This document shows positions 15,232-52,362 of a stretch of 64,000 nucleotides of DNA, one piece after another. The stretch is from Robertmurraya dakarensis. GTDB taxonomy: Bacteria; Bacillota; Bacilli; Bacillales; Cytobacillaceae. A program made the position numbers and the translations under genes. Location: the NCBI RefSeq assembly GCF_900156875.1, contig NZ_LT707409.1:2703057-2767056 (forward strand), given 5' to 3'. The notes under the pieces are model-generated. The model searched no databases, was not told the origin of the DNA, and saw only the letters and a list, made by a program, of their open reading frames with translations. Within the stretch, counting starts at the first letter, position 1, and each line of letters begins with the position of its first letter.

Positions 15232-15576
15232 TTATCCCTTATTCTCCTGTTGCCACTTAATAAATTCGAGAAGAATCTTATAATCTTGAACTGTTTTTTT
15301 ATCCACACCTCTTTCTTTTAATTCGTTTATTAGTTTTAGCCATTCTTTATCAATTGATGGAGTTGGTTCTGTTATATCTGCATTTGGATTAAGCAGAAGC
15401 TGTAGATCAACCTGCAGAACTCCGGAGATTTTCTCAAGTACTTGAATGGATGGGTTCTTATTCAAGCTGCGTTCGATATTGCTTAAGTACGACTTCGAGA
15501 TTGCTGCCCTTTCAGCTAGTTCGGATAGTGTTAGACCTCTTTGTTTTCGAATTCGATAAATGTTTTTACCAATCAT
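15232..15576 (-). CDS. sinR: SinR/SlrR-type biofilm repressor
   Basis: 114-residue DNA-binding protein with an N-terminal XRE helix-turn-helix (IGKNIYRIRKQRGLTLSEL, ISKSYLSNIERSLNKNPSIQ) and a C-terminal Sin dimerisation domain (DKEWLKLINELKERGVDKK, then LLEFIKWQQ). Both domains and the length match B. subtilis SinR (111 residues). The helix block KSYLSxIER-L-NPSIQ-LEK is nearly the SinR one. SinR represses eps and other matrix genes and is inactivated by SinI. Here the gene sits within the eps region, as slrR does beside eps in B. subtilis, so SlrR is the alternative name. RBS AGAGGTATAAAA. An inverted repeat TTCGCAA..TTGCGAA lies 29-60 bases upstream. Confidence 0.88.
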   Translation of the reverse strand: MIGKNIYRIRKQRGLTLSELAERAAISKSYLSNIERSLNKNPSIQVLEKISGVLQVDLQLLLNPNADITEPTPSIDKEWLKLINELKERGVDKKTVQDYKILLEFIKWQQENKG

Positions 15577-34702: not shown

Positions 34703-34820
34703 TCGGGCATTCAACCCGCCCTCACATCACACTCTCGACGACTGGCGTCTAAGGTTTATTTCAACCCACAGCATGACCGAGTGCCTCCTTTGATAACGGT
34801 AAGGAGACATCACCGTATAC
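34703..34820 (-). ncRNA. EAR: EAR element (epsC RNA), processive antitermination element
   Basis: Structured stretch between epsB and epsC, exactly where the EAR/epsC RNA motif occurs in Bacillus eps operons; there it promotes antitermination over the long operon. Visible pairing: CGGT (34812-34815 complement) with ACCG (34797-34800), crossed by CTCCTT with AAGGAG (34801-34806 with 34785-34790), which makes a pseudoknot. Downstream are hairpins GGTT/AACC (34753-34766) and GACG/CGTC (34737-34749) and a G/C-rich GGGCGGG..GCCC end. Position plus the pseudoknot is strong evidence; I could not compare with the covariance model. Confidence 0.8.
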
Positions 34821-37037: not shown

Positions 37038-37075
37038 GTTCTTATTATATCATCATATGAACCTTTATAAAGAAC
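37038..37075 (-). promoter_or_regulatory. Promoter region and SinR-like sites of the secreted W/H-rich protein gene
   Basis: A perfect -10 TATAAT (37044-37049) lies about 55 bases before the ATG; the -35 is weak. A full GTTCTTT half-site (37069-37075) begins GTTCTTTATAAAGGTT, overlapping the -35 region, and a second half-site AAGAAC (37038-37043) lies just downstream of the -10. Confidence 0.65.
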
Positions 37076-37542: not shown

Positions 37543-39345
37543 TTATTCTTGGTTCGCTAGTATTTGTTGATTTTCAAGAAGTTGGCTAAACAACCCTTTC
37601 TTTTCTGACGCCAGTCTTTTAAATCCGCCATTTTGAATGATTTCCCCTTGATCTAGGACAATTACCTGATCTGCGTGGTAAATAGTCGATAATCGATGGG
37701 CAATGACAATAATGGTCATGGTACCTTTAAGCCTTTCTAAAGCGTCTTGAATTCTACGTTCATTTTCCGTATCTAATGCACTTGTCGCTTCATCTAGAAT
37801 TAAAATGGCAGGCCTTCTTAAAATTGCTCTTGCAAGAACAATGCGCTGCCTCTCTCCTCCAGATAATCTGATCCCACGATCACCAATAAGGGTATCAAGT
37901 CCCTGTGGAAGTTTTTTGACAAACTCTGCGGCAGAAGAAAATTCAAGAGATTCCCAAATTTGTGTTTCACTGGCACTTTCGTCAATAATCATAAGATTTT
38001 CCCGGATTGTGGCATTGAATAAAAACGGGTCCTGTGGAACATAGCTAATACAACGCCTTAAGGATAAAAGATTGTCTTTTGTCAAAGGCACCCCATCAAT
38101 AAGGATTTCACCTTTTTCAGGTTGATTTAATCCCATTAATAAATCTATCAAAGTACTTTTTCCCGCCCCAGATTTACCGACAACGGCCGTCATTTTGTTA
38201 GCAGGGAATATCAGATTAATTCCTTTTAGTGCATAAGCAGGTTCATTTCTCATATAACGAAAAGATACATCACGGCAGTGTATACCTTCCACTATTTTTA
38301 TAGGAGGTACTCCTTGAAATGATAGGTGATCTATTTCCTTCGCCTCCCGTGATTGTGTCCTCAATTGAATTAAGGCATTCAATCCGGGAATGGTAGACGC
38401 TAACTGTTCAAGACTTGCCTGGATATTGGTCACTCGAGGCCATAATCTTGAGAATATCACCATAATAATCATGAGTTGAGCTGACTGCGCATGGAACAGA
38501 TACACAGATAAGAAAATAAAAATTGAAATAAGAACAGCTGATGCAATTTTGTAAAATAGCTGAGAGGTTGTTTTCAACGTTGTATAATTGACTTGTTCAT
38601 CATACATCCGCTGTGTGATAGCTCGGAACCACTCCATTCGGGATTGCTCCAATGTATTACTTTTAATATCCTTCATACCATTAAAATTGTCTGTTATACC
38701 AGCTAAGAAATTTCTCCCAATTTCAGAAGTATGGCTTCCAAGAACACGTGAACGTTTAATAAATCCTCTTGAAAAAAAGGCCAAGATTAAACCGCTTAAT
38801 AAGACAAAAAGAGTAATCTGTGGAGATAACAATAAAGCAATTCCCACCTGGATCACTGTAAAAATCAGAGCTGTAATAAGCTGCAGGAATGTATTGGTTC
38901 CTGCGCTTACACGTGCCAATTCAGCAGTAATCGTATTTATAAGATCCGATTTTCTTCTTTTTATATAAAAGTCCCAGTTTGCACGAAGCAAATCGTGATA
39001 GGTTTCTACTCGTAAATGTCTTGCAAAGCCGTGCTGAATCTTTACGTTCTTTATAGCAATATTTCTCTGAATAATATTTATTAAAATATTAGCTATTAAA
39101 AATAGAAACAGAATAAAAGATAGACCAAGTGTACTCGGAATCCCCTGGAGAAAGTCTAAGGATTTTATTATAGGGATTGATCCTGTATCTAAGTTAACCA
39201 CTCCACTATAGTTGATAACAGGGATTAAAAGTAATAAGGCAACTCCATCCAATAGACTAATCATGACCATTCCTAGGAGATTGATAAATAATTCGTTTCC
39301 TGAATATGCGTATAACTGTTTAAAAAAGTATAAGACCTGTTTCAT
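37543..39345 (-). CDS. Lasso peptide ABC exporter (PadeD/LasD-like)
   Basis: 600-residue fused ABC transporter: about six membrane segments over residues 15-330, then an ATPase domain with Walker A GKSGAGKST, signature LSGGERQR, Walker B LILDEATSALD and switch VIAHR. In lasso clusters the D protein exports the mature peptide and gives immunity. AGGAGGCTTTACAC precedes ATG. It follows the nucleotidyltransferase gene by 18 bases. With two precursor genes in the cluster it would have to export both products. Confidence 0.88.
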   Translation of the reverse strand: MKQVLYFFKQLYAYSGNELFINLLGMVMISLLDGVALLLLIPVINYSGVVNLDTGSIPIIKSLDFLQGIPSTLGLSFILFLFLIANILINIIQRNIAIKNVKIQHGFARHLRVETYHDLLRANWDFYIKRRKSDLINTITAELARVSAGTNTFLQLITALIFTVIQVGIALLLSPQITLFVLLSGLILAFFSRGFIKRSRVLGSHTSEIGRNFLAGITDNFNGMKDIKSNTLEQSRMEWFRAITQRMYDEQVNYTTLKTTSQLFYKIASAVLISIFIFLSVYLFHAQSAQLMIIMVIFSRLWPRVTNIQASLEQLASTIPGLNALIQLRTQSREAKEIDHLSFQGVPPIKIVEGIHCRDVSFRYMRNEPAYALKGINLIFPANKMTAVVGKSGAGKSTLIDLLMGLNQPEKGEILIDGVPLTKDNLLSLRRCISYVPQDPFLFNATIRENLMIIDESASETQIWESLEFSSAAEFVKKLPQGLDTLIGDRGIRLSGGERQRIVLARAILRRPAILILDEATSALDTENERRIQDALERLKGTMTIIVIAHRLSTIYHADQVIVLDQGEIIQNGGFKRLASEKKGLFSQLLENQQILANQE

Positions 39346-39363
39346 GTGTAAAGCCTCCTAGAA

Positions 39364-40533
39364 TCATGCTAGTTTTTTCGTTTTCCTCCATGCCCATAAG
39401 AATGGACGTAAAGGAAAATATAAAAAATGGAGCTTCTTTGGTAATGGGAAAGTTTCTATATCTGTATAATAGGGATGTAATATCGTTAGTAAATAAATAA
39501 ACCTTTGACTCTTTGACATTAACGTAAATAAATGTTTTGAATGATATTTTGCAATATCTTTAGGAACTGGATCTGAATGCAAGTTAATCATTCGTTCTAA
39601 GTAAAAAATAGCGTCCTGTGCCAGCTTTTTTGATTGCCTTGGTGTGGTGAGGACTACTGTTTCATTTGGTATTTTAGAATTTATAAGACTAGCTGATAAG
39701 ATCAATGCTTGCCCGGCAATATGTTCTGCTTTATGCATTCTCAATACCTTTAGCACGTTCTCCCATTTGAGATCCTTCATTAAGATTTGGTGGATATCGG
39801 TCAGCCAGCGCAGTCTCGACCATCCGTGACGAGCTCCATGGGAGACAAGAAAATAGAATAAGTCCTCATAGCCCAATGTATAGATTGGAGTATTCCCAAA
39901 CTCGGTTTCTCTTTTTCTCTTCCACAGCTCCTTAAACGATGGTTCTTTACTTGGAGCTGGATTCAGTCTCCAATGAATTTCAATTTTCGTTCCATTTTTA
40001 TGGTAATAAGTAAAATGATGGTGCCGCCATTTCCAGTCATTTAAAAATGATTTTATATATTCGTCTTTTTCGTATCCTATATTTATAAGGAGTTTCTCCG
40101 CAAGATGTAATGATTCAAGCGGTACGAGTATATCTAAATCTCCGCAAGTACGCTTCGATATATCTTCATACAAATCCGCTGCTAGAGTCGGCCCCTTTAG
40201 AAAAAGAGGGCGAATATCATTTTCCAAAAATAACTTGCTAATCCTATCCATTTCCCCACATAGATGAAGCATTCTGAAGGTATTTTCACGATAGGAATCT
40301 GCTAATGTTTGAAAAACGTTAGCGGGTACCAAACTGTTATTGTTTTTATTCAACTTGGAATATAGCAATGGATAAAGGCGATGGTGGAAAGCTTGCTGAA
40401 GAAATAACTCCCAGTCGATATCGACGTACCTTTCCTTAGGGATTTTCTCATGTTCTTCCGTTTTGAGGATTTCGAAGATAAGGTTTAGTTCGTTTGGAAT
40501 TTTGGTAGTGTTAAGATCCAGATTTTTCTCCAT
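39364..40533 (-). CDS. Nucleotidyltransferase-family protein of paeninodin-type lasso clusters
   Basis: 389-residue protein of the NTP_transf_5-like family, with FLKGPTLAADLYEDISKRTCGDLDILVPL carrying the metal-binding G-D-x-D pair and HHHFTYYHKNGTKIEIHWRLNP after it. Such N genes occur in Bacillales lasso clusters together with a kinase and are thought to take part in tailoring of the peptide's C-terminus; the exact reaction is unsettled to my knowledge. GAAGGGGAAAGCA precedes ATG, and the start overlaps the B2 gene by 23 bases. Confidence 0.8.
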   Translation of the reverse strand: MEKNLDLNTTKIPNELNLIFEILKTEEHEKIPKERYVDIDWELFLQQAFHHRLYPLLYSKLNKNNNSLVPANVFQTLADSYRENTFRMLHLCGEMDRISKLFLENDIRPLFLKGPTLAADLYEDISKRTCGDLDILVPLESLHLAEKLLINIGYEKDEYIKSFLNDWKWRHHHFTYYHKNGTKIEIHWRLNPAPSKEPSFKELWKRKRETEFGNTPIYTLGYEDLFYFLVSHGARHGWSRLRWLTDIHQILMKDLKWENVLKVLRMHKAEHIAGQALILSASLINSKIPNETVVLTTPRQSKKLAQDAIFYLERMINLHSDPVPKDIAKYHSKHLFTLMSKSQRFIYLLTILHPYYTDIETFPLPKKLHFLYFPLRPFLWAWRKTKKLA

Positions 40534-41008
40534 TGCTTTCCCCTTCTACTCGTTTATCACTAGCTCTGTTTGCAAACATACTAACAACCGTAAACTTTTC
40601 CATGCCTTCTGAACCTGACACGTAAAATGGACCACTTCGAAGCCAAGCATGAGCAATCATTTTTCCTGATTCATCTCTTGCTGTTCCCAAATAAAGAGTG
40701 CTATCAATGTGACGCCTATTTAGCATTCTCATACCTGCTATCGCCTTGACAAGACACTGACTCTCCCAAAAGGTATATCGGCTCATCAAGTGAATGGCAT
40801 GGGATACATTTTTAATGATTGCTTTATCTGATGTTAAATGAATAGTGGAAGTTTCATTCATATGTTCACCAAGGGAAGGAGCCACTTTCGAAAATGGGAG
40901 CAGCTTCAGAATACGTGCATACCCTAAGTAACAAAATGCCTCCATATAGAGCAACCTTGTCTCTGTTTTTATAGAAAAAAAGGCTAAGATCTTAGTTAAA
41001 ACATTCAT
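40511..41008 (-). CDS. Lasso peptide B2 leader protease (transglutaminase-like)
   Basis: 165-residue cysteine protease that removes the leader peptide so the cyclase can close the ring. Catalytic residues are visible as ESQCLVKAIAGMRMLNRR (Cys85) and MIAHAWLRSGPFYV (His120), the standard B2 core. An N-terminal helical part precedes it. AAGGGGATTATCCA stands before ATG. It lies 23 bases after the B1 gene, so this is a split B1/B2 system as in other Gram-positive lasso clusters. Confidence 0.92.
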   Translation of the reverse strand: MNVLTKILAFFSIKTETRLLYMEAFCYLGYARILKLLPFSKVAPSLGEHMNETSTIHLTSDKAIIKNVSHAIHLMSRYTFWESQCLVKAIAGMRMLNRRHIDSTLYLGTARDESGKMIAHAWLRSGPFYVSGSEGMEKFTVVSMFANRASDKRVEGESNGEKSGS

Positions 41009-41031
41009 TGGATAATCCCCTTAAATTTCCA

Positions 41032-41322
41032 TTAGGAAAATTGTATTAATCCTTCCGTATAGAGATGATTTAAAAAGGAGAGTACTTCCTCCTCGCATTC
41101 CTTTTTCCCTACCTCATAATTTTCCATAAGGGCTTTGACAATATCATTAACGACTATGGGAGTCTCTATCAAATCCCAAATAGCTCCGCCTATTTCTCCT
41201 AAATTGTAGTACTTACCATTGGAGATACTGAGCATCACTGTTTCACCGCCCATATCGGTTGCAATATTCCCCTTTACTTGTTTCACCGTTGTTTCTAATG
41301 ATAGTTTTGTGTTTGTCAGCAT
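41032..41322 (-). CDS. Lasso peptide B1 protein (PqqD-like RiPP recognition element)
   Basis: 96-residue PqqD-like domain that binds the leader peptide and presents it to the B2 protease. GGETVMLSISNGKYYNLGEIGGAIWDLIETP and VNDIVKALMENYEVGKKECEEEV give the winged-helix pattern. It is expected to bind the WxxPxLEVLEV segment of both precursors. AAAGGAAGTAGCAAAA precedes ATG, five bases after the kinase gene stop. Confidence 0.92.
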   Translation of the reverse strand: MLTNTKLSLETTVKQVKGNIATDMGGETVMLSISNGKYYNLGEIGGAIWDLIETPIVVNDIVKALMENYEVGKKECEEEVLSFLNHLYTEGLIQFS

Positions 41323-41327
41323 TTTTG

Positions 41328-42248
41328 CTACTTCCTTTCGATTGTATTTAATACGAGTGAAGTTAACTCATCTGCAGTAAATCGATCTTCAGGTCTCTGC
41401 AATTGATAGATTTTTATTTCATGAATAATGGCTGCTGTCATCTTAAAATGCCATTCCATTAATCCTAATGGCCCAATCATGAAGTTGCGGTATGTATGAT
41501 AATAGAGCGTATGCAATCGTTCGAGATGAAGGATAGGTGTCAAGTTAATATCTACTGAATTCGACTTGATTAATTCAAATACTCCTGCTAATGGCAAACA
41601 ATCCGTAGCAAATTTATCGGAAACAGGGACTGCAAATTTTGTTTCGCGATCGACAATTGGACGGAACTTTTCAGATGATATTCCAAACTGATTCAGACTT
41701 TCCTGCCACAACTTCTGTTGAGGATAAGAGGGGGTCACCATAGGAATCCCTTCGGCTGTTAGTGTCACAGGGATTACATCATCAGTTATCAGCCGTTTAC
41801 CTCGATTTATAAGAGCTGAAGCTAAAGTAGATTTACCTGCACCCGAATCCCCTACGATTAGATATGCTTTCCCATTCACTTCAATCGCACTGCCATGGAG
41901 AGGCAGGATTTTTCTCTGAAGCAGAATGGCGCCCATGCAAGTACCGAGAATATAAAGGCGAAGATAATCTTCAGTCGCATCTCTTAATGGTGAAACTAGA
42001 ATTTTATAACCATCCTGTACTATGAATGTCGCAATATTAGGTATCTGAAAAAGCACCGAACCTTCATCAATATAGAAGTAACGATTTGGTTCATTTACTT
42101 CTGCCCAGATCTCGGTTAAGTCCGCAAATTCTATTAAAATATCAATTTCTTTTTTAGTGTAAACCCATGGCAACTCAGGTAACGGAATTTCACTCATAAC
42201 ATTGAAACCGAATGCTTTATACACCTTCCCGTTTAAAGTTACTGTCAT
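41328..42248 (-). CDS. HPr kinase-like lasso peptide kinase (PadeK-like)
   Basis: 306-residue protein resembling HPr kinase: LHGSAIEVNGKAYLIVGDSGAGKST (Walker A 133-141) and RLITDDVIPV. In the paeninodin pathway the K enzyme phosphorylates the side chain of the C-terminal Ser of the precursor. Both precursors in this cluster end in Ser, so both are possible substrates. GGGGGTAGT precedes ATG. The N-terminal 110 residues hold a substrate-binding region unlike true HprK, which supports a RiPP role. Confidence 0.88.
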   Translation of the reverse strand: MTVTLNGKVYKAFGFNVMSEIPLPELPWVYTKKEIDILIEFADLTEIWAEVNEPNRYFYIDEGSVLFQIPNIATFIVQDGYKILVSPLRDATEDYLRLYILGTCMGAILLQRKILPLHGSAIEVNGKAYLIVGDSGAGKSTLASALINRGKRLITDDVIPVTLTAEGIPMVTPSYPQQKLWQESLNQFGISSEKFRPIVDRETKFAVPVSDKFATDCLPLAGVFELIKSNSVDINLTPILHLERLHTLYYHTYRNFMIGPLGLMEWHFKMTAAIIHEIKIYQLQRPEDRFTADELTSLVLNTIERK

Positions 42249-42326
42249 ACTACCCCCATGCTTTCTTGTGATATTTTACCCTTACACCCTCCATGATTGG
42301 GTATAAGGGTAAGTCATCTAAATAAC

Positions 42327-42503
42327 TTAACTCCCTAGTCCTGGTTTACAGCTCGCATTTGATGTCTCACTACTCTGATTACCATTCATATTTCCATTAT
42401 GCTCTCCAACATCAAAACAATCCGGAACTGCATTCCCATTTCCGTTGAAGGTCATCCTAACCTCAAGTACCTCTAACCTCGGTACTTTCCATTGTCTCCT
42501 CAT
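42327..42503 (-). CDS. Lasso peptide precursor 2 (58 residues, long core with two Cys)
   Basis: Leader MRRQWKVPRLEVLEVRMTF (19 residues) has the W-x-x-P-x-L-E-V-L recognition segment and Thr at -2. The predicted core starts NGNGNAVPD, so a ring Asn1-Asp9 is possible, followed by CFDVGEHNGNMNGN and ends with KPGLGS. It is about 39 residues, long for a lasso peptide, with Cys10 and Cys33 and a C-terminal Ser. ATG at 42503 has GGGAGGTG before it; the upstream TTG at 42521 overlaps that site. The gene follows its cyclase by 14 bases. Confidence 0.85.
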   Translation of the reverse strand: MRRQWKVPRLEVLEVRMTFNGNGNAVPDCFDVGEHNGNMNGNQSSETSNASCKPGLGS

Positions 42504-42517
42504 TCGTTCACCTCCCT

Positions 42518-44470
42518 TCAATATAAATATTTGAGAAACCGATAAAGGATAAGGCTCCGAATTAAAATTTTAAATTGATCCGAGAATATAATATTTGGAT
42601 TATGGTCCTTACCGATATAATCTATTCCGTTTTGTATGACATCCCGATTTACGAATTCTGTCATCATTGAATCATTGGAAAGTCGCTTTAATTCCTCTAC
42701 AAAGGCACTCCAGCATGACCTCATTCTATGAACCGTATCAGCCCCCTGGATTCCACGAATCTGATGATTCAGCCTCACCTTATCTGGGAGGATATTTTTC
42801 GTTGCTCTTCTTAAAAATGATCGTTCCATTCCATTTTTAACATATTGCTCTTCGGGGATTGATAAGCAAAATTGAATCACACGCAAATCATTTGTTGGGT
42901 CTCGGTCCCATAGTGAATAACGTAAAGACAGCTTCGTTGTAGCAGTACCGCTTTTATTCCAAAAATAGAGTTGATTATAGTGCTTTCTTCTATACTGAGT
43001 GAAATCACCGCTAGACGTCCCTGATATATCAAAGTCATTTTCTAAAAGTCTGATAAACACTTTTGTCCTTTTTGCAAAGTCAGGATTGATAAAGGAAGGA
43101 AATTGATAGTCTGTCTCATTCCTTCTTGCCAGCATCTTATATAAATCAGGAAAAGCATTTCTAGCGACAATGGGAAGCATCACCTTTTTACCTGTACAAA
43201 AGTTTGTACAATATGATTCTAGTTCCTTATTAAGCCGTAATATCCTTAGCTTTCTTAAAAGTGAAGAATAGTAATCAATTGATAAACTCCTAGATCCCCA
43301 GGATATTGAATGGTTCCCTCTCGAGCCGTTTAGCAGGATTTTCACACCCTGTTTAGAAGCATGTTCATTAATCCCTTTAAGCCAAAAAGCATTTTCAAAA
43401 AATTTATACGGCATTTCCATAAGGTTTAGAAAATCATCTACTTCTGTAAATGGATCCTTACCAGTAAAATTCAGATAGTGATCCTTTATATTCCCTATAA
43501 ATTGAACTGTCTCTTTTATAAAAGGTCTTTCATCGGCTAAATAATATTTTGGGGTCCAATCAAAAAAGTCATCTTCTGGAATGTAGCTGTATGTATGTAA
43601 TAATTTATTCTCTTTTTGTAGGGCTTTGGCTGCAAAGCTGACAACCGTGCCTGAATCTAATCCGCCGCTTAAATGCGAGCCAACCTTGCCGTGGGTGCGT
43701 AATTTTTCACTAACTGACCGTTGAAAAACCTCATGAAAAGCCTCTTCGTATTCTTGATCAGACTTTAATTTCAATTCCCTATCAAGAGATAATTTCCAAT
43801 ATCGATGTAAATGGATATTTCCTTTTTCAATCGTAATAGTGTGCGCTGGCGGAAGTTGATAGATATTTTTGTATACGGTATGATTTACATCAGTAGATTC
43901 AACCATTGTGGGTATAGCTAGAAACTCTGCAAGCCACTCTTCATTTAACTTTTTTTCTACGTTTGGTAATTCAAATAAAGGTTCAATAGTAGTACAAAAA
44001 GCAAACCGTGACTGATCTTTATAATAGTAAAGCGTACGTGCACCAGAAAAGTCTCTAGCACCAAATAGGATTTGTTGATTTTCATCCCAGATCATAAAGC
44101 TAAAATCCCCGACTAGATAGTTAGGAGATTCTTTACCCCATTTCTCGTATGCTAGTAATATAAGTTCAGTATCTGTAATTGTTTCTCGTATAAATCGGGA
44201 AACTTGTAAACGTTCAAATATCTCATTTCGATTATCAATTATGGCATCAGCTGTAATAACTATTTTTTTATCATTAACATATAAAGGATTCTGTTCACCT
44301 ACAGATTCAGGGGTAATCCATTGGTTGTGACAGAGGAATAATAAGTAATCCTTTTGCCAAGTTTGAACATTATCTACTGGAATTTCCTCTAAAGCTTTGA
44401 TTACTTTATTAAAAAGTTCAATATTAACTGGTTCCTTGAGAATATTGTATATTCCAGTAATAGCCGCCAT
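42518..44470 (-). CDS. Lasso peptide cyclase 2 (asparagine synthetase-like)
   Basis: About 650-residue enzyme with an N-terminal glutaminase-like domain and a C-terminal PP-loop ATPase. SHLSGGLDSGTVVSFAA binds ATP; the enzyme adenylates the Asp9 side chain and forms the macrolactam. The N-terminus reads MAAITGIYN: the catalytic Cys2 of true asparagine synthetases is absent, as expected for lasso cyclases, which need no glutamine. I chose ATG at 44470 with AGAAGGAACG upstream, which equals the N-terminus of the paralogue. It is about half identical by eye to cyclase 1 and precedes precursor 2. Confidence 0.9.
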   Translation of the reverse strand: MAAITGIYNILKEPVNIELFNKVIKALEEIPVDNVQTWQKDYLLFLCHNQWITPESVGEQNPLYVNDKKIVITADAIIDNRNEIFERLQVSRFIRETITDTELILLAYEKWGKESPNYLVGDFSFMIWDENQQILFGARDFSGARTLYYYKDQSRFAFCTTIEPLFELPNVEKKLNEEWLAEFLAIPTMVESTDVNHTVYKNIYQLPPAHTITIEKGNIHLHRYWKLSLDRELKLKSDQEYEEAFHEVFQRSVSEKLRTHGKVGSHLSGGLDSGTVVSFAAKALQKENKLLHTYSYIPEDDFFDWTPKYYLADERPFIKETVQFIGNIKDHYLNFTGKDPFTEVDDFLNLMEMPYKFFENAFWLKGINEHASKQGVKILLNGSRGNHSISWGSRSLSIDYYSSLLRKLRILRLNKELESYCTNFCTGKKVMLPIVARNAFPDLYKMLARRNETDYQFPSFINPDFAKRTKVFIRLLENDFDISGTSSGDFTQYRRKHYNQLYFWNKSGTATTKLSLRYSLWDRDPTNDLRVIQFCLSIPEEQYVKNGMERSFLRRATKNILPDKVRLNHQIRGIQGADTVHRMRSCWSAFVEELKRLSNDSMMTEFVNRDVIQNGIDYIGKDHNPNIIFSDQFKILIRSLILYRFLKYLY

Positions 44471-44491
44471 GTCGTTCGTTCCTTCTTTCAA

Positions 44492-44681
44492 CTATCTTGT
44501 ATAAGTAATATAGTCATAAATTAAATTATTAGTTGTCCCTAACCAAATTGTGATTTAGAGTTTTGTTATCTGTAGAATTCCATTTTTTCCTAAATATGGT
44601 TTTACAAGCCCTTATACATGCTATCCTTGTATAAGGGCTATGTTTGTTAATTAAATTCGGTAAGCAATTTTTTGTCTACAC
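44492..44681 (-). other. Spacer between precursor 1 and cyclase 2 with a terminator-like hairpin
   Basis: About 190 bases without a gene. Near 44607-44640 the minus strand reads TAGCCCTTATACAAGG...CCTTATACAAGGGCTTG-like repeats: CAAGCCCTTATACA and TGTATAAGGGCTA are inverted copies (44606-44640), a good stem that could end or attenuate the first cyclase-precursor transcript so that precursor 1 is more abundant than downstream enzymes. Confidence 0.55.
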
Positions 44682-44816
44682 TTAACTATGAAATGTTAAA
44701 TCACCTCTGTCGGTTTCAGCAGGAAATTCTGCATCTGTTCTGTCTCCATATTTTCCAAGCAATGTCATTTTTACCTCGAGTACTTCTAAAATAGGTTTTT
44801 CCCATTCCTTTTTCAC
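44682..44816 (-). CDS. Lasso peptide precursor 1 (44 residues)
   Basis: GTG start at 44816, immediately after the TAA stop of cyclase 1 (44817-44819), with GGAGGTG overlapping the cyclase end, so translation is coupled. Leader of 19 residues, MKKEWEKPILEVLEVKMTL, with W-x-x-P-x-L-E-V-L and Thr at -2. The predicted core is 25 residues: it starts LGKYGDRTD (ring Leu1-Asp9), continues AEFPAETDRG and ends LTFHS with a C-terminal Ser like paeninodin. All features of a class II, Asp9-type lasso precursor with a phosphorylatable end. Confidence 0.9.
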   Translation of the reverse strand: MKKEWEKPILEVLEVKMTLLGKYGDRTDAEFPAETDRGDLTFHS

Positions 44817-46772
44817 TTAATCACCTCCTTCATTTATTTTATTAATAAATCGGTATACAATTAGGCTTCGCATTAATGTTCTATAATCTGGGTCTGTGTC
44901 AAGTGAGACTTGAGGTCCCTTTTCACCTTTTGCAATAGCTTCTCGTAATATTTTTTTATCTAGAAAATCTAAAATTCTAGTATCAGTACTAAGTATTTTT
45001 AACTCTTCTATAAATTTGTCCCATTGAGAAGCCATTCTATGGACCCAATCAGTCCCCTGTACTCCACGAATTCGTTGATTGAGCCTGACCGTATCAGGTA
45101 AATATGTTTCAGTAGCACGTCGGACAAGAGCACGATCCACTCCATTCTGAACATATTGTTCTTCCGGTATCGACAAACAAAAACGCACTACGCGGAGATC
45201 ATTTGTGGGATCACGCTTCCACATTGAATGCCGTAAGGATAGTTTTGTAATAAGGGTATTACCAGTATTCCAAGGAAATATATTATTACCTATAAGATTT
45301 TTTCTTTCGTCAAAAATATTGGCTGCGGTAATCCATCCTGTGTCGTTAACTCCATATTTTTCAAGTTTTTCATAGATTGAAGTCCTTTTTGCAAATCCCT
45401 TATTTATAAGAGCAGGAAGATAATATCCTGTTTTTTTTTGTGGAATTTTACGAATAACTGGAAATGCTAACTTTACAACTGTAGGCAACCTTCTTAGCCT
45501 AGCACCTCCTGTCTTAATAGAATATTGATTTAATTCTTGCAATAGTTTAAACCACTTTAATCGTCTTAACAGCTTTGCATAATAGTCTAGAGCAGACCCC
45601 CAAGAAATAGTAAAATTTCCTCTATCCCCATTTAGGAGTACTCCAATTCCTTCCACCTCAGCACATTCAAACACGCCTTTTAGCCAAAACGAATTTTCAA
45701 AAAATTTATACGGCATTTCCATAGCTTCAAGCATATCGTCGATTTCCGTATAAGAACTTTTCCCTTCAAAATCTAGATAGTGATCGTTTATTCCTCCAGT
45801 ATATTGAACAGTTGATTTAATGAACGGTCTCTCGTCAGCTAATAAGTGCTTTGGAGTAAAATCAACAAAATCCTCCGGAGGAATATAACTAAAGGTGTGC
45901 AATATTTTATTTTGCTTTTTCAAGGTTCTTGCTGCAAATCCAACGACTGCGCCAGAATCTAGACCTCCACTCAACTGAGATCCAACATTCTTAAATGTAC
46001 GAAGTCTTGAATCAACAGCCTCCTGAAAAACTTCTTGAAATGCTTCAACATACTCTTCATTAGAACTGAGTTTTAAACGTTCACCTGTAAAAAAAGAGCC
46101 ATATCTATTTAATTTTATTTTCCCTTTTGAAATTGTGATGCTATGTGCCGGTGGAACCTGGTCAATATTTTTATATGGAGTTGTTCTGGCATCTACTGTA
46201 TCGATAGTTCCCGTAATAGCCAAGTATTCTGCGAGCCATTCCTCATTTAGTTTTTTCTTAACATAGGATAAAGACAACAATGGAGCAAGTGTAGTACAGA
46301 AAGAAAATCGCCCGTTGTCCATGTAATAATAAAGTGTCCGATAACCAGACAGATCCCTTGCCCCAAATAGCTTTTGTTCTCTCTCATCCCATATCATAAA
46401 AGCAAAATCCCCAACCAAAAACTTCGGTGAGTCTTCTCCCCATTTATGATAAGCTAGAAGAATTAACTGACTGTCCGTGATTTGTTTTCTGTCTTCTTTA
46501 TGTATCTGTAATTTTTCAAACAGTTCTTCTCTATTATCAATAATGGCATCAGCTGTTATGGCTAATTGTCTCTGATAATCATAAAAAGGAAGCTGCTCAC
46601 CAATTGATTCTGGTGTAATCCATTGTGCATGGCAGCCAAGAAAAACATGATCCTTTTGCCATGTTTGTACATCATCAGCTGGAAACTTACTGAGTGCTTT
46701 CATGATTCCTCTACTATATTCAATTGAAATAGGTTCCTTGTTAAAATGAACAATTCCTGCGATTGCACTCAT
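44817..46772 (-). CDS. Lasso peptide cyclase 1 (asparagine synthetase-like)
   Basis: About 651-residue cyclase, first gene of the lasso cluster. N-terminal MSAIAGIVHFN lacks the catalytic Cys2, so the glutaminase domain is inactive; the PP-loop SQLSGGLDSGAVVGFAA is intact. ATG at 46772 has AGGAGGAAAAG before it, whereas the longer frame at 46790 begins inside that region. Its C-terminus ends INEGGD with the stop directly joined to the precursor 1 start. A paralogue (cyclase 2) is next in the cluster; the sequences differ enough to suggest specialised substrates. Confidence 0.9.
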   Translation of the reverse strand: MSAIAGIVHFNKEPISIEYSRGIMKALSKFPADDVQTWQKDHVFLGCHAQWITPESIGEQLPFYDYQRQLAITADAIIDNREELFEKLQIHKEDRKQITDSQLILLAYHKWGEDSPKFLVGDFAFMIWDEREQKLFGARDLSGYRTLYYYMDNGRFSFCTTLAPLLSLSYVKKKLNEEWLAEYLAITGTIDTVDARTTPYKNIDQVPPAHSITISKGKIKLNRYGSFFTGERLKLSSNEEYVEAFQEVFQEAVDSRLRTFKNVGSQLSGGLDSGAVVGFAARTLKKQNKILHTFSYIPPEDFVDFTPKHLLADERPFIKSTVQYTGGINDHYLDFEGKSSYTEIDDMLEAMEMPYKFFENSFWLKGVFECAEVEGIGVLLNGDRGNFTISWGSALDYYAKLLRRLKWFKLLQELNQYSIKTGGARLRRLPTVVKLAFPVIRKIPQKKTGYYLPALINKGFAKRTSIYEKLEKYGVNDTGWITAANIFDERKNLIGNNIFPWNTGNTLITKLSLRHSMWKRDPTNDLRVVRFCLSIPEEQYVQNGVDRALVRRATETYLPDTVRLNQRIRGVQGTDWVHRMASQWDKFIEELKILSTDTRILDFLDKKILREAIAKGEKGPQVSLDTDPDYRTLMRSLIVYRFINKINEGGD

Positions 46773-46792
46773 TCTTTTCCTCCTGCCCAAAT

Positions 46793-46808
46793 GTTCCTAA
46801 TAAAGAAC
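46793..46808. promoter_or_regulatory. SinR-like palindrome near the lasso cluster start
   Basis: GTTCCTAATAAAGAAC, a near-palindrome with GTTC and AAAGAAC ends, 20 bases before the cyclase 1 start codon and just upstream of its ribosome-binding site. Confidence 0.6.
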
Positions 46809-46872: not shown

Positions 46873-46928
46873 GTTCATTATAAAGAACAATATATTCTTA
46901 ATTTACCATGGCTTCTACAAGCTGTCAA
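46873..46928 (-). promoter_or_regulatory. Lasso cluster promoter with a SinR-like palindrome
   Basis: On the minus strand TTGACA (46923-46928), 17 bases, then TAAATT (46900-46905). About 10 bases after the -10 comes GTTCTTTATAATGAAC (46873-46888), matching the eps operator at 15 of 16 positions of the ideal palindrome. Its place at the start of transcription suits repression. Confidence 0.72.
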
Positions 46929-47310
46929 TCAAATCTTAGATTGTCATTTTATATAACGAATGTATATACAAGTAAAAGCTTTTCATCTATTAGTTATAAT
47001 CCTTTAGCACCAATAAATATGCTTTTATGCCACTTATTATAACAACGCTATAGCTAGAAACCTAGATAATTCTTATATAATTTTTCAACAACTTCTACCA
47101 TTTTTTGAGTTTTGCAAAATGAATTATTATACGACTTCTGCCAGAAGTGCACGAGAAAAAACATTTTAACAAAATAACTTTTGGGATATCTGTCTACTTT
47201 TGTCGGAATTAGTATTAATTTTTAGATAATTTTGGTATTTTTTCCAAAACCACAAAGTAGTATAATTTAACTACACGATAATAGTGAAAATTAAAAAAAT
47301 ACAAACTACT
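46929..47310. other. AT-rich divergent regulatory region
   Basis: About 380 bases between the lasso promoter and the c-di-GMP aptamer hold no gene. A perfect TATAAT (47261-47266) on the plus strand, with only a T-rich -35 region, is the likely start of the riboswitch-sinI transcript. The rest is AT-rich with no repeat I can name. Confidence 0.55.
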
Positions 47311-47391
47311 GACAAAGGCAAACTTGCTGAAAGGTGAGGACGCAAAGTTACAGATCTAAGGTGCGAGGGTGCTAGGATGGCTGTGCTGCCA
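47311..47391 (+). ncRNA. Cyclic-di-GMP-I (GEMM-I) riboswitch
   Basis: Class I c-di-GMP aptamer: ACAAAGGCAAAC opens it, CTTGCT-GAAA-GGTGAG forms the first hairpin with its GNRA tetraloop, then the near-invariant GGACGCAAAG, then ATCTAAGG and the second arm ending GGATGGCTGTGCTGCC. These blocks in this order are the GEMM-I consensus. It ends only four bases before the AGGAGG of the sinI-like gene and no terminator intervenes, so control of ribosome access is more likely than control of transcription (inference). Direction of the response cannot be read from the sequence. Confidence 0.92.
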
Positions 47392-47408
47392 CATAGGAGG
47401 TAAAAAGG

Positions 47409-47573
47409 GTGGCAAATTTTGAGCAACTGGACCAAGAATGGATTGAATTAATGAAAGAAGCAAGAGACTTAGGCATATCGATTCAAGAGGTAAAAGACTA
47501 TTTTCAAAGAAACAGCGCTAAGCTGACAGAAAAAGAGGAAGCACTGCCTACCATTCGACTTCTCCCTTCATAA
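47409..47573 (+). CDS. sinI: SinI-like antirepressor
   Basis: 54-residue protein starting at GTG with AGGAGGT eight bases upstream. FEQLDQEWIELMKEARDLGISIQEVKDYF is the SinI domain; B. subtilis SinI has LDQEWVELMVEAKEANIS in the same place. A short C-terminal tail LPTIRLLPS follows. SinI binds SinR and breaks its DNA-bound tetramers, releasing matrix genes. It is not next to sinR here but 32 kb away, downstream of a c-di-GMP aptamer. It is too short to appear in a longer-frame survey. Followed by a small terminator. Confidence 0.88.
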   Translation: MANFEQLDQEWIELMKEARDLGISIQEVKDYFQRNSAKLTEKEEALPTIRLLPS

Positions 47574-47581
47574 AACTTCAA

Positions 47582-47604
47582 TACCCTAGAAAGGGTTATT
47601 TTTA
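47582..47604 (+). terminator. Terminator after the sinI-like gene
   Basis: ACCCT and AGGGT pair around AGAA, followed by TATTTTTA. The stem is short, so some read-through toward the K+ channel gene is possible. Confidence 0.5.
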
Positions 47605-47693
47605 TCACCAGTAAATTTAGCATTCCTTCGTTTAGCCTCCCCCACAAATGACCAAGATGGTAATAGAAATTTTAAGTCTTGGAGTGAGAGGCC

Positions 47694-48689
47694 ATGTCGC
47701 ACCATTTTTATCATATTTTTGCACGTCTGCCGATGTTTTTTCGAATATTGTTGATGGCCTTAACAGTCATTCTAACTCTCGGTATCATCGTTACGTTTAT
47801 TGAACCAGAAACGTTTCACACCATTTTCGACGGAATCTGGTGGGCAATTATCACGGCGTCTACCGTTGGGTACGGAGATATTGTACCGCAAACGACAGCT
47901 GGGAAAATTACAGGGATCGTGCTGATTTTTTTCGGAGCTGGCTTTCTCTCAGCTTATCTTATTTCACTTGCGACATCAGCGGTGACAAGACAGACTGATT
48001 TTCTGGAGGGAAAAGTGGCGTTTAAAGGAAAAGATCATATTGTCATTATCGGCTGGAATGAGCGATCCCGTGAAGTTATACATAAATTCTTAGAATTCCA
48101 TTACAAAGGATCGATTGTCTTAATTGACGAGACGTTGAAAAAGAACCCTTTCTCTGATTACCATGTGCAATTTATTCAGGGAAGATCCCATACCGATCAG
48201 ACCCTGTTGAAGGCTAATATTGAGGATGCTTCAAAGGTGCTCATTACAGCTGATCAAAATCGTGATGAATTGCAGGCAGATATGAATACGATTCTTACCT
48301 TGCTAGCCATTAAAGGCTGTAACAACACGGTTCCTTGTGTCGTTGAGGTGCTTACTGCGGAGCAAGCCGCAAATGCGAAAAGAGCGGGTGCGGATATTGT
48401 CATTCAATCGAATAACATAACAAGTTCGGTTATGTTGAACAGCTTAAAAACTGAGGGCCGTGTAGAATCACTGCTGAGTTTGCTTGAGCAATTAGATGGA
48501 AGCAGAATTGTTTCCCGTTCTTCAGAACCATTTATCAACAAGAAGTTTAACGATGCCAGTAAGATTTTATTGGAGGAAGACTCGATTTTATTAGGGATAA
48601 AAAGAGGAGCAAACACGACTGTGAATCCTCCCCCAGATTTTATCATTAAAGATCACGATGTACTTATCGTCATCACACCTGCATCATAG
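47694..48689 (+). CDS. yugO: YugO-like potassium channel with TrkA-N/RCK domain
   Basis: 331-residue K+ channel: two membrane helices around the pore with selectivity filter STVGYGDIVP (TVGYGD at 57-62), then a cytoplasmic RCK/TrkA-N domain (HIVIIGWNERSREVIHKFL) and a RCK-C part. B. subtilis YugO has the same layout and carries electrical signals in biofilms. GGAGTGAGAGGCC precedes ATG. It follows the sinI-like gene by 120 bases on the same strand; the next gene, yugN, is convergent, as in the B. subtilis neighbourhood. No MstX-like gene precedes it. Confidence 0.9.
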   Translation: MSHHFYHIFARLPMFFRILLMALTVILTLGIIVTFIEPETFHTIFDGIWWAIITASTVGYGDIVPQTTAGKITGIVLIFFGAGFLSAYLISLATSAVTRQTDFLEGKVAFKGKDHIVIIGWNERSREVIHKFLEFHYKGSIVLIDETLKKNPFSDYHVQFIQGRSHTDQTLLKANIEDASKVLITADQNRDELQADMNTILTLLAIKGCNNTVPCVVEVLTAEQAANAKRAGADIVIQSNNITSSVMLNSLKTEGRVESLLSLLEQLDGSRIVSRSSEPFINKKFNDASKILLEEDSILLGIKRGANTTVNPPPDFIIKDHDVLIVITPAS

Positions 48690-49088
48690 CTATTCATTTA
48701 ACAATGTTACTTCAAGCTCGGACACTAACGCTTTCCCTGCGTCAATATATTGATAAGGAACTTCTGCGTCCTTGTCGATTGGTTCCTGGAACTGGTTAAG
48801 GGTACCGGCATCGTCGACCTCTTCGTCTATGCCTACCTCGTACACATGAGAGAGTAAGAAAGGACGCCCGAGCTCTACGGTACAGTTTCTAGAATCGAGC
48901 TGACCATCAACCGCCCGAAATGGCAACCGTACAAACTGGTAACCATTTTCATCGTTTAACTTGTAATCGAAATAACCGTGATCGTAGTCCCAATTACCTC
49001 CAATCGAATAACCAAGCGGTTTCAAGTACTGTTCGAGCTTATACAAATCAAATTGTCTGCCTTCTACTTTTGAAGGAATCTCAATCAT
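48690..49088 (-). CDS. yugN: YugN family protein
   Basis: About 132-residue soluble protein with the YugN pattern: LDQYLKPLGYSIGGNWDYDHGYFDYKL-like LEQYLKPLGYSIGGNWDYDHG, then YQFVRLPFRAVDG and LGRPFLLSHVYEVG. Function is unknown. ATG at 49088 is preferred, with AAAGGGG upstream; the frame extends back to a TTG at 49106 that overlaps the binding site. Its stop is adjacent to the stop of the convergent channel gene. Its place next to yugO and pgi is the B. subtilis order. Confidence 0.88.
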   Translation of the reverse strand: MIEIPSKVEGRQFDLYKLEQYLKPLGYSIGGNWDYDHGYFDYKLNDENGYQFVRLPFRAVDGQLDSRNCTVELGRPFLLSHVYEVGIDEEVDDAGTLNQFQEPIDKDAEVPYQYIDAGKALVSELEVTLLNE

Positions 49089-49193
49089 GACAGCAACCCC
49101 TTTCAAGCTTTTGGCTTAGTTTCCCCCAAAAAAAGAGTGTTAGTCTTTAAAAAGTAACGGGTTCGAAAATACAGGTTAAATAACTTACAAAAA

Positions 49194-49222
49194 GCATGGC
49201 AAGAAAAATCTGCCATGCCTTT
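49194..49222. terminator. Hairpin GCATGGCA/TGCCATGC with T-runs
   Basis: Perfect eight-base-pair stem with a nine-base loop, followed by CTTTT on the plus strand and TTTTTG on the minus strand. It lies upstream of yugN with no obvious gene to end, so it may be an orphan terminator or a repeat remnant. Confidence 0.5.
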
Positions 49223-49269
49223 TAGGCGTAGAATTTACCGTTAAAGTATAGTGGGGAGGCTTAATAGGC

Positions 49270-49413
49270 AGAAATAAATGGAGAAATTCCGCTTATCCTT
49301 TCTAATTAAGGTAAAATCCAATGATTTGGACCATATAACGGGAAAATTTGCCCTTATTGTTAAGGAAATATCGGTATTTCCCAAAATAAGCGGAATTCTT
49401 CCGCTTATTTTTC
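49270..49413. repeat. Palindromic TCCGCTTAT repeat block
   Basis: Non-coding block with ATTCCGCTTATCC at about 49286-49298 and, 90 bases on, AATAAGCGGAA-TTC-TTCCGCTTATT (49385-49409). The latter is an eleven-base-pair stem with a three-base loop and a following T-run. The three copies of the same core, two inverted, suggest a small interspersed element like those known in Bacillus genomes. No coding potential. Confidence 0.5.
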
Positions 49414-49459
49414 AAACACGATTAGATTTTAATTTGTCCAAAACATTGATACAGAAATA

Positions 49460-49484
49460 GGGTGAGAAAATCACTTTCTCACCC
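49460..49484 (-). terminator. Terminator of pgi
   Basis: GGGTGAGAAA and TTTCTCACCC form a perfect ten-base-pair stem around five bases, 39 bases after the pgi stop. The T-run is weak (CCCTATTT). Confidence 0.6.
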
Positions 49485-49522
49485 CATTTGCAAGTACTTA
49501 TTTCTTCAAAAAGACAAACAAA

Positions 49523-50872
49523 TTATTTCAACCGCTTCTCCAACTCCGCCTTCTTCTCTTCAAACCCAGGCTTGCCGAGCAGCGCAAACATATTCACTTT
49601 ATAAGCTTCAACCCCAGGCTGATCGAACGGATTAACTCCCAATAAATAACCGCTCATCGCACATGCTTTTTCAAAAAAGTAAACTAGGTAGCCGAATGTG
49701 TACTCATCAAGTTTCGGGATGGATACAATCAGGTTCGGCACTCCGCCGTCCGTATGGGCGAGCAGCGTTCCTTCAAACGCTTTGTTATTGACAAAATCGA
49801 TTGTTTTTCCAGCGAGATAGTTCAAGCCATCGAGATCGTTTTCCGTTTTTTCAATGGTTAGTTCGTGACGTGGATTTTCCACTTTAATGATCGTTTCAAA
49901 TAAGTCACGGCGACCTTCTTGAACATACTGACCTAATGAATGAAGGTCGGTTGAGAAATTAGCAGATGCTGGAAAAATTCCCTTTTGATCCTTTCCTTCG
50001 CTTTCACCAAACAGCTGCTTCCACCATTCTGAAAAATATTGAAGACCTGGCTCATAATTGATGAGCATTTCAATACTTTTTCCTTTGTTCAGTAAAATGT
50101 TACGAACAGCTGCGTACTGATAAGCAAGGTTATTTTCAAGTTCTGATTCGCTGAACTCCTCACGGGCATCAGCCGCACCCTTCATCATCGCTTCAATATC
50201 AGCACCGCTCGCCGCAATTGGCAGAAGTCCAACCGCAGTTAACACCGAATATCTGCCACCCACATCGTCGGGGATAATAAACGATTCATAGCCTTCTTCA
50301 TTGGCGAGTGTTTTAAGAGCACCTCGAGCTTGATCAGTCGTGGCATAAATGCGTTTCCGAGCTTCCTCCGCACCGTATTTTTCTTCTAACATTTTGCGGA
50401 AAATCCGGAAAGCAATTGCTGGCTCTGTAGTCGTCCCAGATTTTGAAATCACATTCACAGAAAAATCTTTTCCTTCCAACAGGTCCATGACATCTCTCAT
50501 ATAAGTGGAGCTGATGTTATTCCCAACAAAAATGATTTGAGGTGTTGTCCGCTTTTCTTTCGGAAGAGCATTATAAAAGCTATGCTGCAGCATTTCAATC
50601 GCAGCACGCGCCCCTAAGTAAGAACCGCCAATTCCAATCACCAATAAAACGTCAGAGTCACCTTTTATCTTTTCTGCCGCTTTTTGGATTCTTGAAAATT
50701 CCTCTTTATCATAATCAACCGGAAGGTCAATCCAGCCTAAATAATCACTTCCCGCTCCTGTTTGTTCATGCAGGGAGTGGTGAGCCACTTTAACGAAATC
50801 TCTCATATATTCAATTTCATGTTCTCCAAAAAAGGATAGTGCCTTCGAGTAATCAAAACGCAACTTTGTCAT
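49523..50872 (-). CDS. pgi: Glucose-6-phosphate isomerase
   Basis: 449-residue glycolytic enzyme that interconverts glucose 6-phosphate and fructose 6-phosphate, the branch point to the sugar nucleotides. Substrate and catalytic segments [52 protein letters not shown] and [16 protein letters not shown], and [25 protein letters not shown] are intact. Typical Firmicute length. Lies in the conserved yugN-pgi-yugJ order. Confidence 0.97.
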
Positions 50873-50989
50873 CCTTGATCCTCCTAAATTCTATGTATTC
50901 TTTTACACTCTAAACAATCTTTGCTCCGTAATCAAGAAACCCTGATATTGTAAGCGTGTCCAATTAAAGACATTATTTTACATACTATT

Positions 50990-51026
50990 TAAAAATAAAA
51001 ATAACGTGCCGAAACGACACGTTATT
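50990..51026 (-). terminator. Terminator of yugJ
   Basis: AATAACGTG and CACGTTATT pair on the minus strand with further CG pairing inside the loop; TTTTATTTTTA follows. 22 bases past the yugJ stop. Confidence 0.85.
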
Positions 51027-51048
51027 TCTACAATAATGACGATTTCAC

Positions 51049-52212
51049 CTATAAAGAAGCGCGATAAATCGCAAGCACATCATCACGGTTTAATTTTTTA
51101 AAGTTACCGAATTCACCGTTAACCATCGCTTTATCGGCCATTACTTCGATTTGGCTGTCATCAATATCATAATCCGCTAAGCGGGAAGGTGCACCGATGC
51201 TGTTCCAGAACTCGCGGAGTTTTTCGATTCCTTCCAGGCCAGCTTCTTCATCACTTTTTCCTGTTGGATCAACACCGAAGACGCGGACAGCTAACTTTTT
51301 AAAGCGCTCAGGTTTCACATTCAAGTTGTGCTTCATCCAATTCGGGAATAAAATTGCCAGTCCGCCGCCATGAGGAATATCGTAAACCGCTGAGACAGCG
51401 TGCTCAATATTATGTGTAGCCCAATCACCGCGGAAACCCATCGAGAACATTCCATTTAGTGCCATTGTTCCGTTATAAAGGATCGTTGCTCGCTCTTCAT
51501 AGCTTTCCAAGTTTTCTAACAGCCTTGGTGCCGACTCCATCACCGTAAGAAGCTGGCCCTCGCACATACGATCTTGCAATAAAGTATTTTCTTCCAAGTG
51601 GAAATAATGCTCGATGACATGTGACATCATATCAACAATGCCGTAGACAGTTTGGTCTCTTGGCACAGTATAGGTATTTTCAGGATCAAGGATCGAGAAT
51701 TTCGGGAATGTCACAGGACTTCCCCAGCCATACTTCTCCTTTGTTTCCCAATTTGTAATAACAGAACCAGCGTTCATTTCAGAACCTGTTGCAGCAAGTG
51801 TCAGCACAGTTCCAAACGGAAGTGCCTCTTTCGCGAATGCTTTTTTCGTGACGATATCCCATGCATCGCCATCATATTTTGCTCCGGCTGCGATTGCTTT
51901 CGTGCAGTCAATAACACTGCCGCCTCCTACCGCTAGTAAAAATTCTATTCCTTCCTTTTTGCAAAGCTCCACACCTTTTCTTACGGTAGAAATACGCGGG
52001 TTCGGCTCTACACCTGACAATTCAAAGACTTCAGCACCCAGCTCTTTTAACAATGACATGACATCATCATAAAGTCCGCTGCGCTTAATGCTGCCGCCGC
52101 CGTAAACAAGGAGAACCTTCTTGCCGTACTTCGGTACCTCATCTTTTAACGCTTCTAGCTGCCCTTTTCCGAAGATTAATTTCGTTGGGTTCCAATATGT
52201 AAAATTGATCAT
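51049..52212 (-). CDS. yugJ: Iron-containing alcohol dehydrogenase, YugJ/butanol dehydrogenase type
   Basis: About 387-residue NAD(P)H-dependent alcohol dehydrogenase of the BDH group: [73 protein letters not shown]. The iron ligands lie in [12 protein letters not shown] and the later [25 protein letters not shown] at 52212 has AAGGAGGATGATT upstream; the frame extends to 52251 without reason. Synteny with pgi and yuzA matches B. subtilis yugJ/yugK. Physiological substrate is uncertain. Confidence 0.92.
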
Positions 52213-52362
52213 GTTTAAATCATCCTCCTTCAGGTACTTATTATCTTTCATCTTTTTTGTGAATGCAAAAATTACGATTTTTTAAGGATTACCATTGCAT
52301 ATGCATAATATTCTTTTAAAAAAATCACACTATAGGTAATCCCAAATATAAGGAGGTACAGC

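Follow-up and report, generated by a model that had tools for sequence, protein, structure and literature searches.

Biofilm formation in Bacillus subtilis involves the antirepressor SinI and its target SinR, the repressor of the eps operon, and the action of c-di-GMP on matrix genes is less direct there than in many Gram-negatives. The sinI-sinR switch of this organism operates under Spo0A (PMC3667857). Aptamers of the c-di-GMP-I class have been described within the Bacilli as Bc1 and Bc2 of the Bacillus cereus group, with mapped ligand-contact residues, and these precede mcpE and a collagen adhesin gene (PMC11218506, PMC4933901). Bc1 possesses a long expression platform with two terminators and binds c-di-GMP, while expression of its downstream genes does not follow c-di-GMP in vivo; an aptamer alone is therefore no guarantee of a switch (PMC11218506). 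For Paenibacillus, an "antisense-acting" c-di-GMP-I riboswitch has been reported against a SinR homologue (PMC9943018). A (c-di-GMP)-sinI riboswitch has been predicted in Bacillus methanolicus MGA3, where RNA-seq-defined 5'-UTRs were compared with Rfam (Irla et al. 2015, PMC4342826).

Here we describe a c-di-GMP-I aptamer that directly precedes a sinI-like gene within a 64,000-nucleotide stretch of the Robertmurraya dakarensis genome (the window). A first-pass annotation of this DNA knew of no described case in which sinI is read out by c-di-GMP, a claim we rejected on the basis of the earlier B. methanolicus prediction, which puts the aptamer-sinI pairing itself already in print (PMC4342826). 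The MGA3 case is the same in having a c-di-GMP riboswitch in the sinI leader, but the entry consists of one table row and one sentence, with no mechanism, platform, second copy or survey (PMC4342826). Among the papers listed from the open-licence literature, we found no survey, mechanism or experiment on the aptamer-sinI pair. The aptamer class and its pairing with sinI are already known; we found no report among these papers of a conserved platform running from the equivalent of C92 to the Shine-Dalgarno sequence, of its breadth or of its dispersal. In contrast to Bc1 and Bc2, the target in the window is a regulator of SinR, and the linker of 15 nt without a terminator differs from the long Bc1 platform (PMC11218506, PMC4933901). 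A SinI-domain antirepressor and a SinR repressor are shared with B. subtilis, whereas here an RNA gate is predicted to be added at the translation step, and the sinR-linked copies of the family mostly lie tail to tail with sinR (60 of 64). Searches of 14 control genomes, among them that of B. subtilis, detected no c-di-GMP-I aptamer.

The Rfam covariance model RF01051 matched window positions 47307-47393 (+) over its full length (model positions 1-87), scoring 71.6 bits (gathering score 35; E-value 4.6e-12). The complete GEMM-I aptamer proposed in the first-pass annotation, which had named a c-di-GMP-I covariance scan as a check, is thus upheld, and the element is classed by this match as a c-di-GMP-I riboswitch with predicted ligand binding. 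Equivalents of Vc2 G20, A47 and C92 were placed by eye on the Rfam alignment at G47317, A47344 and C47389, following the ligand-contact mapping in which Bc1 G11, A38 and C81 correspond to the same three residues (PMC11218506). The closing GCC of the aptamer has its last base at 47390, and the Shine-Dalgarno sequence AGGAGG (47395-47400, +) follows after the four-base gap that had been claimed. The gene begins with a GUG start codon at 47409, eight bases 3' of AGGAGG, such that the linker between aptamer and gene is 15 nt. A TATAAT at 47261-47266 (+), found by eye, is a possible -10 element lacking a good -35, and a promoter scan around this copy returned no sigma-70 promoter on the + strand.

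The gene itself (47409-47573, +) encodes 54 amino acids that matched the whole 28-residue Pfam SinI profile (PF08671; 50.8 bits, cut-off 31.4, E 1.3e-13) as well as the B. subtilis SinI chain in the PDB (1b0n_B, E 1.3e-5). These matches agree with the SinI homologue of 54 residues described from the first pass, for which a search against the SinI family had been advised, although the product missed the cut-off of the NCBIfam SinI equivalog model NF046031 (33.5 versus 80 bits) and is therefore a SinI-domain relative rather than an equivalog of B. subtilis SinI. A terminator scan of 47000-47750 also agreed with the first pass in finding none between aptamer and gene, and we rejected a terminator in the linker; the sole terminator-like site in that interval is a weak hairpin past the gene (47583-47596, +), with 5 pairs followed by TATTTTTATC.

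No SinR was found in the 3084 bases of locus L012, which holds the window sinI-like gene. The next downstream gene (47694-48689, +) encodes a potassium channel with Ion_trans_2 and TrkA_N domains, which we presume to be YugO-like from these domains and the B. subtilis gene order. The region 47694-52251 encodes the K+ channel, a 138-aa frame, glucose-6-phosphate isomerase and alcohol dehydrogenase, an order that we take to recall the yug region of B. subtilis, with the sinI-like gene at the place of mstX. In B. subtilis, SinR represses the mstX-yugO operon, which acts through KinC and Spo0A to promote biofilm formation (PMC3667857). The position of the sinI-like gene may be more than coincidence.

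A survey of relatives for GEMM-I aptamers upstream of sinI, another check suggested in the first pass, found the pair to be common. We drew 81 genomes of the family, of which 76 were SinI-positive among the matches listed, and fetched 75 sinR loci, one SinI-domain locus per genome with the SinR type assigned by frame length; the 76th SinI-positive genome (G061), with its locus at a contig start, was left out. Model R1, built from 22 aptamers picked by score and not by their neighbours, with the window and L009 aptamers left out, detected an aptamer in 64 of the 75 loci (E <= 0.01), 63 of them with at least 66.6 bits. In all 64 a SinI match started on the same strand no more than 400 nt downstream and SinR was nearby, on the opposite strand in 60 cases and on the same strand in 4. 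Behind the remaining weak match (L159, 24.3 bits) we found no intact sinI reading frame preceded by a ribosome site. From 443 named sinR-like loci, which include Robertmurraya, Cytobacillus, Neobacillus and Niallia, we took the best 80; an aptamer was present in 69, and SinI lay within 200 nt downstream in 68 of these. The aptamer went undetected in 11 of the 75 family loci and 11 of the 80 named-genome loci, and it was present in 34 of 69 further SinI-domain sources, a count that includes duplicates and SinR-type loci.

Beyond the family, we searched 150 genomes of the order with model R2, which combines the aptamer with a linker hairpin, and fetched the best 30 matches (3 from this family, 27 from others). 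SinI was located downstream of 29. SinR shared the strand in 14 loci and lay opposite in 12, and none was seen in 4, including the one locus without SinI; these matches lean towards the hairpin platform because R2 was built from alignment A3, described below. Across 250 genomes of the class, matches at E <= 1e-16 came from 19 genomes, 11 of them outside the order, and 3 of those 11 matches precede SinI. Dispersed copies also occur elsewhere: the flanks fetched around nine further strong aptamer-sinI cassettes, from eight other genomes, contained no SinR. Searching the collection with a SinI alignment was uninformative, conservation being too low. Given how widely relatives share this pair of sensor and gene, c-di-GMP probably enters the biofilm switch directly, by way of RNA.

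At typical sinR-linked loci, a linker hairpin joins the 3' end of the aptamer to the sinI Shine-Dalgarno sequence. Alignment A3 comprises 43 of 84 loci, hand-chosen as distinct types containing this hairpin; those left out, with the hairpin absent or variant, include L012, L011, L019, L046, L127, L139, L151, L183, L097 and L100. The ten hairpin pairs were paired in 98.1% of 423 cells, a percentage that leans upward because of this choice of sequences (n=43), whereas sliding the register gave no more than 58.6%. The C equivalent to Vc2 C92 takes part in the first pair, and columns 106-108, which follow it in the 5' arm of the hairpin, also pair as P1 with the 5' flank (93.5% of 123 cells, at most 63.7% slid). 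In 4 sequences read from A3, a P1 C-G is changed to U-A and the Shine-Dalgarno hairpin pair is kept too. Covariation in the hairpin was modest, with changes on both sides in 4 cells, where 22 of 500 shuffles reached the number of pairs so changed, and 11 further pair types against 8.2 in shuffles. Sequestration of the Shine-Dalgarno sequence is thus both conserved and exclusive with the ligand-bound fold across the 43 chosen sequences, and because the same bases serve either that fold or the mask on the ribosome site, we infer a translational ON switch. When the last six aptamer bases were blocked in folding, a crude model covering all 84 loci in which the rise comes partly by construction, Shine-Dalgarno accessibility increased by more than 0.1 in 58 loci, decreased by more than 0.1 in 6 and stayed within 0.1 in 20. 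The comparative evidence from relatives supports the earlier suggestion that control is likely translational. Four loci of one genus (L127, L151, L139, L046) have a CUUCC-type linker pairing to a GGAGG or GGGGGG Shine-Dalgarno sequence in place of the usual GCCUGG hairpin; their aptamer 3' end differs, and the pairing potential remains.

The aptamer-sinI pair is real and conserved, and judged from sequence it most likely acts as a translational ON switch into SinI/SinR. In the ligand-free RNA, bases at the aptamer 3' end, among them the ligand-contacting C, would pair with the ribosome site of sinI and block translation; the masked site would be the Shine-Dalgarno sequence in typical relatives and, for the window copy, perhaps the GUG start codon. 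With c-di-GMP bound, the same 3'-end bases would be held in P1 and the ligand site, the ribosome site would be freed and SinI would be made. SinI would then titrate SinR, or the SinR paralogue of the eps cluster, with derepression of matrix genes. We regard it as probable that c-di-GMP is fed into the SinI/SinR biofilm switch in this way.

The genome contains ten c-di-GMP-I aptamers, five SinI-domain frames and 24 GGDEF domains. A second aptamer-sinI pair, overlooked in the first-pass annotation, is located on contig C10 (L009) facing a 107-aa SinR. The sinI linked to the real sinR thus has an aptamer of this class too, and by comparison of the two loci we classify the window copy as a dispersed extra copy of the pair. 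The nearest named SinR proteins to that of this genome are from a Bacillaceae bacterium, a record titled Bacillus methanolicus and Robertmurraya species, with 93 to 87% identity. The L009 copy has no good Shine-Dalgarno hairpin (fold z +1.4), and its Shine-Dalgarno accessibility was 0.27 before and 0.26 after blocking. Two stand-alone SinI-like genes face each other at 216 kb on contig C11 (L015:1480-1617 (+) and 1749-1880 (-)) with no sinR in between; a cmscan search covering the overlapping locus L013 detected no c-di-GMP-I aptamer near them. The eight other aptamers are at L001, L002, L003, L004, L005, L006, L008 and L010, and the frame after the L001 aptamer holds a GGDEF domain.

Within the window, a SinR-type protein had been noted at 15.2 kb, and we located it at 15232-15576 (-), inside the exopolysaccharide gene cluster, with 46% identity over 109 columns to the sinI-linked SinR of the genome, although Pfam found no SinI/SinR C-terminal domain on the product at E <= 0.001. 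This paralogue is a possible partner of the window SinI. Under an alternative that is compatible with the ON switch, the small protein would be an SlrA-like partner of the paralogue, carrying c-di-GMP to eps by a parallel branch. About 32 kb separate the window sinI-like gene from the paralogue in the eps cluster, and the presence in the genome of the C11 pair together with a separate sinR-linked SinI is consistent with such a role; the SinI core nevertheless fits the general SinI family and no sequence signal that we examined assigns a partner, and we consider this alternative conceivable but doubtful.

A GTTCTTT 7-mer, which we take to be the SinR-box 7-mer, was found by motif scan in the presumed eps promoter (37069-37075, -). 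Over the whole window this 7-mer was not enriched (29 seen versus 24.07 expected), and the window-wide sites were dropped as uninformative. The exopolysaccharide cluster also contains an epsC RNA element (RF01735, 115.3 bits, 34704-34815, -). An apparent lasso peptide cluster at 37543-46790 (-) includes a paeninodin-family precursor (44682-44816; NF033524, 47.9 bits, cut-off 27), two 657-aa frames that by eye only are asparagine synthetase-like (42518-44491 and 44817-46790), and HPr-kinase-like, transglutaminase-like, nucleotidyltransferase and ABC transporter genes. Two GTTCTTT 7-mers (46802-46808 and 46882-46888, -) lie less than 100 bp upstream of the 44817-46790 gene, and through these a link of SinR to the lasso peptide cluster is possible.

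The window copy differs from typical relatives in its expression platform. We rejected a Shine-Dalgarno hairpin shared with relatives, as folding showed none (z +0.6) and the Shine-Dalgarno sequence was predicted to be 0.86 open without ligand. With the aptamer pairs enforced, folding instead predicted a 6-bp stem of -8.0 kcal/mol between UGCCAC in the aptamer 3' strand (47387-47392, +), which holds the C92 equivalent, and GUGGCA, the GUG start codon with the GCA codon after it (47409-47414, +). The unpaired probability of the start codon was 0.01 in the free RNA and 0.41 with the pocket bases blocked, while Shine-Dalgarno accessibility in the same model fell from 0.99 to 0.60 on blocking. An equally long stem arose somewhere in 48 nt in 210 of 2000 shuffles, and on the start codon in 2 of 2000. 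Masking of the GUG start codon by the C92 equivalent in this copy is thus only suggestive, as a product of modelling. The module was observed at the K+-channel locus in this genome only, 1 of 27 loci with the same downstream channel gene, and no clear orthologue of the window SinI was found among the matches listed for 193 family genomes (best other 63% over 32 residues). From this single-genome insertion and lack of a clear orthologue, the window copy looks lineage-specific and its regulation the least certain.

These same observations would be expected if the window copy were a drifting duplicate with a decayed platform and constitutive SinI translation, leaving only the sinR-linked copies of the group as real switches. 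The missing Shine-Dalgarno hairpin, the open Shine-Dalgarno sequence, the insertion in one genome, the SinI without a clear orthologue and a start-codon hairpin within reach of chance all favor this explanation. However, this copy has kept an intact aptamer in which the three ligand-contact equivalents are all present, the start-codon pairing falls exactly on GUG, and two pocket-side P1 pairs are possible, one of them flipped from A-U to U-A (by eye against A3, in which the window is not included). We consider decay of this copy unlikely. An OFF switch, in which ligand-bound P1 only four bases before the Shine-Dalgarno sequence would hinder the ribosome and c-di-GMP would lower SinI, has in its favor the very short spacing in the window and a Shine-Dalgarno sequence predicted to be open without ligand and, in one model, less accessible once the pocket is blocked. 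We judge it improbable, given that the conserved hairpin of relatives masks the Shine-Dalgarno sequence in the unbound form and that the start codon is predicted to be masked in the unbound window RNA. An OFF switch would also keep SinR active at high c-di-GMP, opposite to a report for B. thuringiensis in which sinI expression is up at high c-di-GMP, cited there as unpublished array data (PMC7793685). Transcriptional control by a Rho-dependent or unrecognised terminator, for which terminator-like hairpins within 170 nt downstream of 4 of the 9 other aptamers of the genome (L001, L004, L006, L008) might speak, is very improbable with a linker of only 15 nt and no terminator-like site either in it or after the sinR-linked copy L009.

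For the translational ON switch, the upstream sequences may also indicate how transcription enters. An exact TGTCGAA, which we take to be the Spo0A box, occurred upstream of 31 of the 69 named sinR-linked aptamers, whereas 629 permuted motifs averaged 1.1 and reached 13 at most, an enrichment inflated because related genomes were counted as separate. Many of these sites are grouped some 120 nt ahead of the aptamer. The enrichment fits Spo0A-driven transcription with c-di-GMP gating translation, and with such putative boxes at the sinR-linked copies Spo0A need not be outside the circuit. No TGNCGAA was found within 400 nt upstream of the window copy, where the only near-match was TGTCGGAA at 47201. 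A more elaborate proposal, which we put forward tentatively, is an AND gate across much of the order, whereby Spo0A~P would turn on sinI transcription and c-di-GMP would then have to open sinI translation via the ligand-contacting base. Under this proposal the cassettes would have been copied to new places in several genomes; in the present one, a copy would have settled near eps, next to a K+-channel gene, and evolved a start-codon gate anew.

The arrangement in relatives also bears on the Paenibacillus riboswitch, which similarly is a c-di-GMP-I aptamer pointing towards a SinR-like gene but was read as antisense control (PMC9943018). At L299 and L300, from the class outside the order, we observed an aptamer, a sense sinI and then an opposite-strand SinR, and an overlooked small sinI may therefore explain the Paenibacillus case. 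This suggests re-reading the "antisense-acting" SinR riboswitch as a sense riboswitch on such a gene (PMC9943018). Whether sinI is under a riboswitch is testable with a single reporter. If true, a conserved sinI riboswitch would let c-di-GMP reach the master matrix repressor directly, in a single step, across a large group of bacilli.
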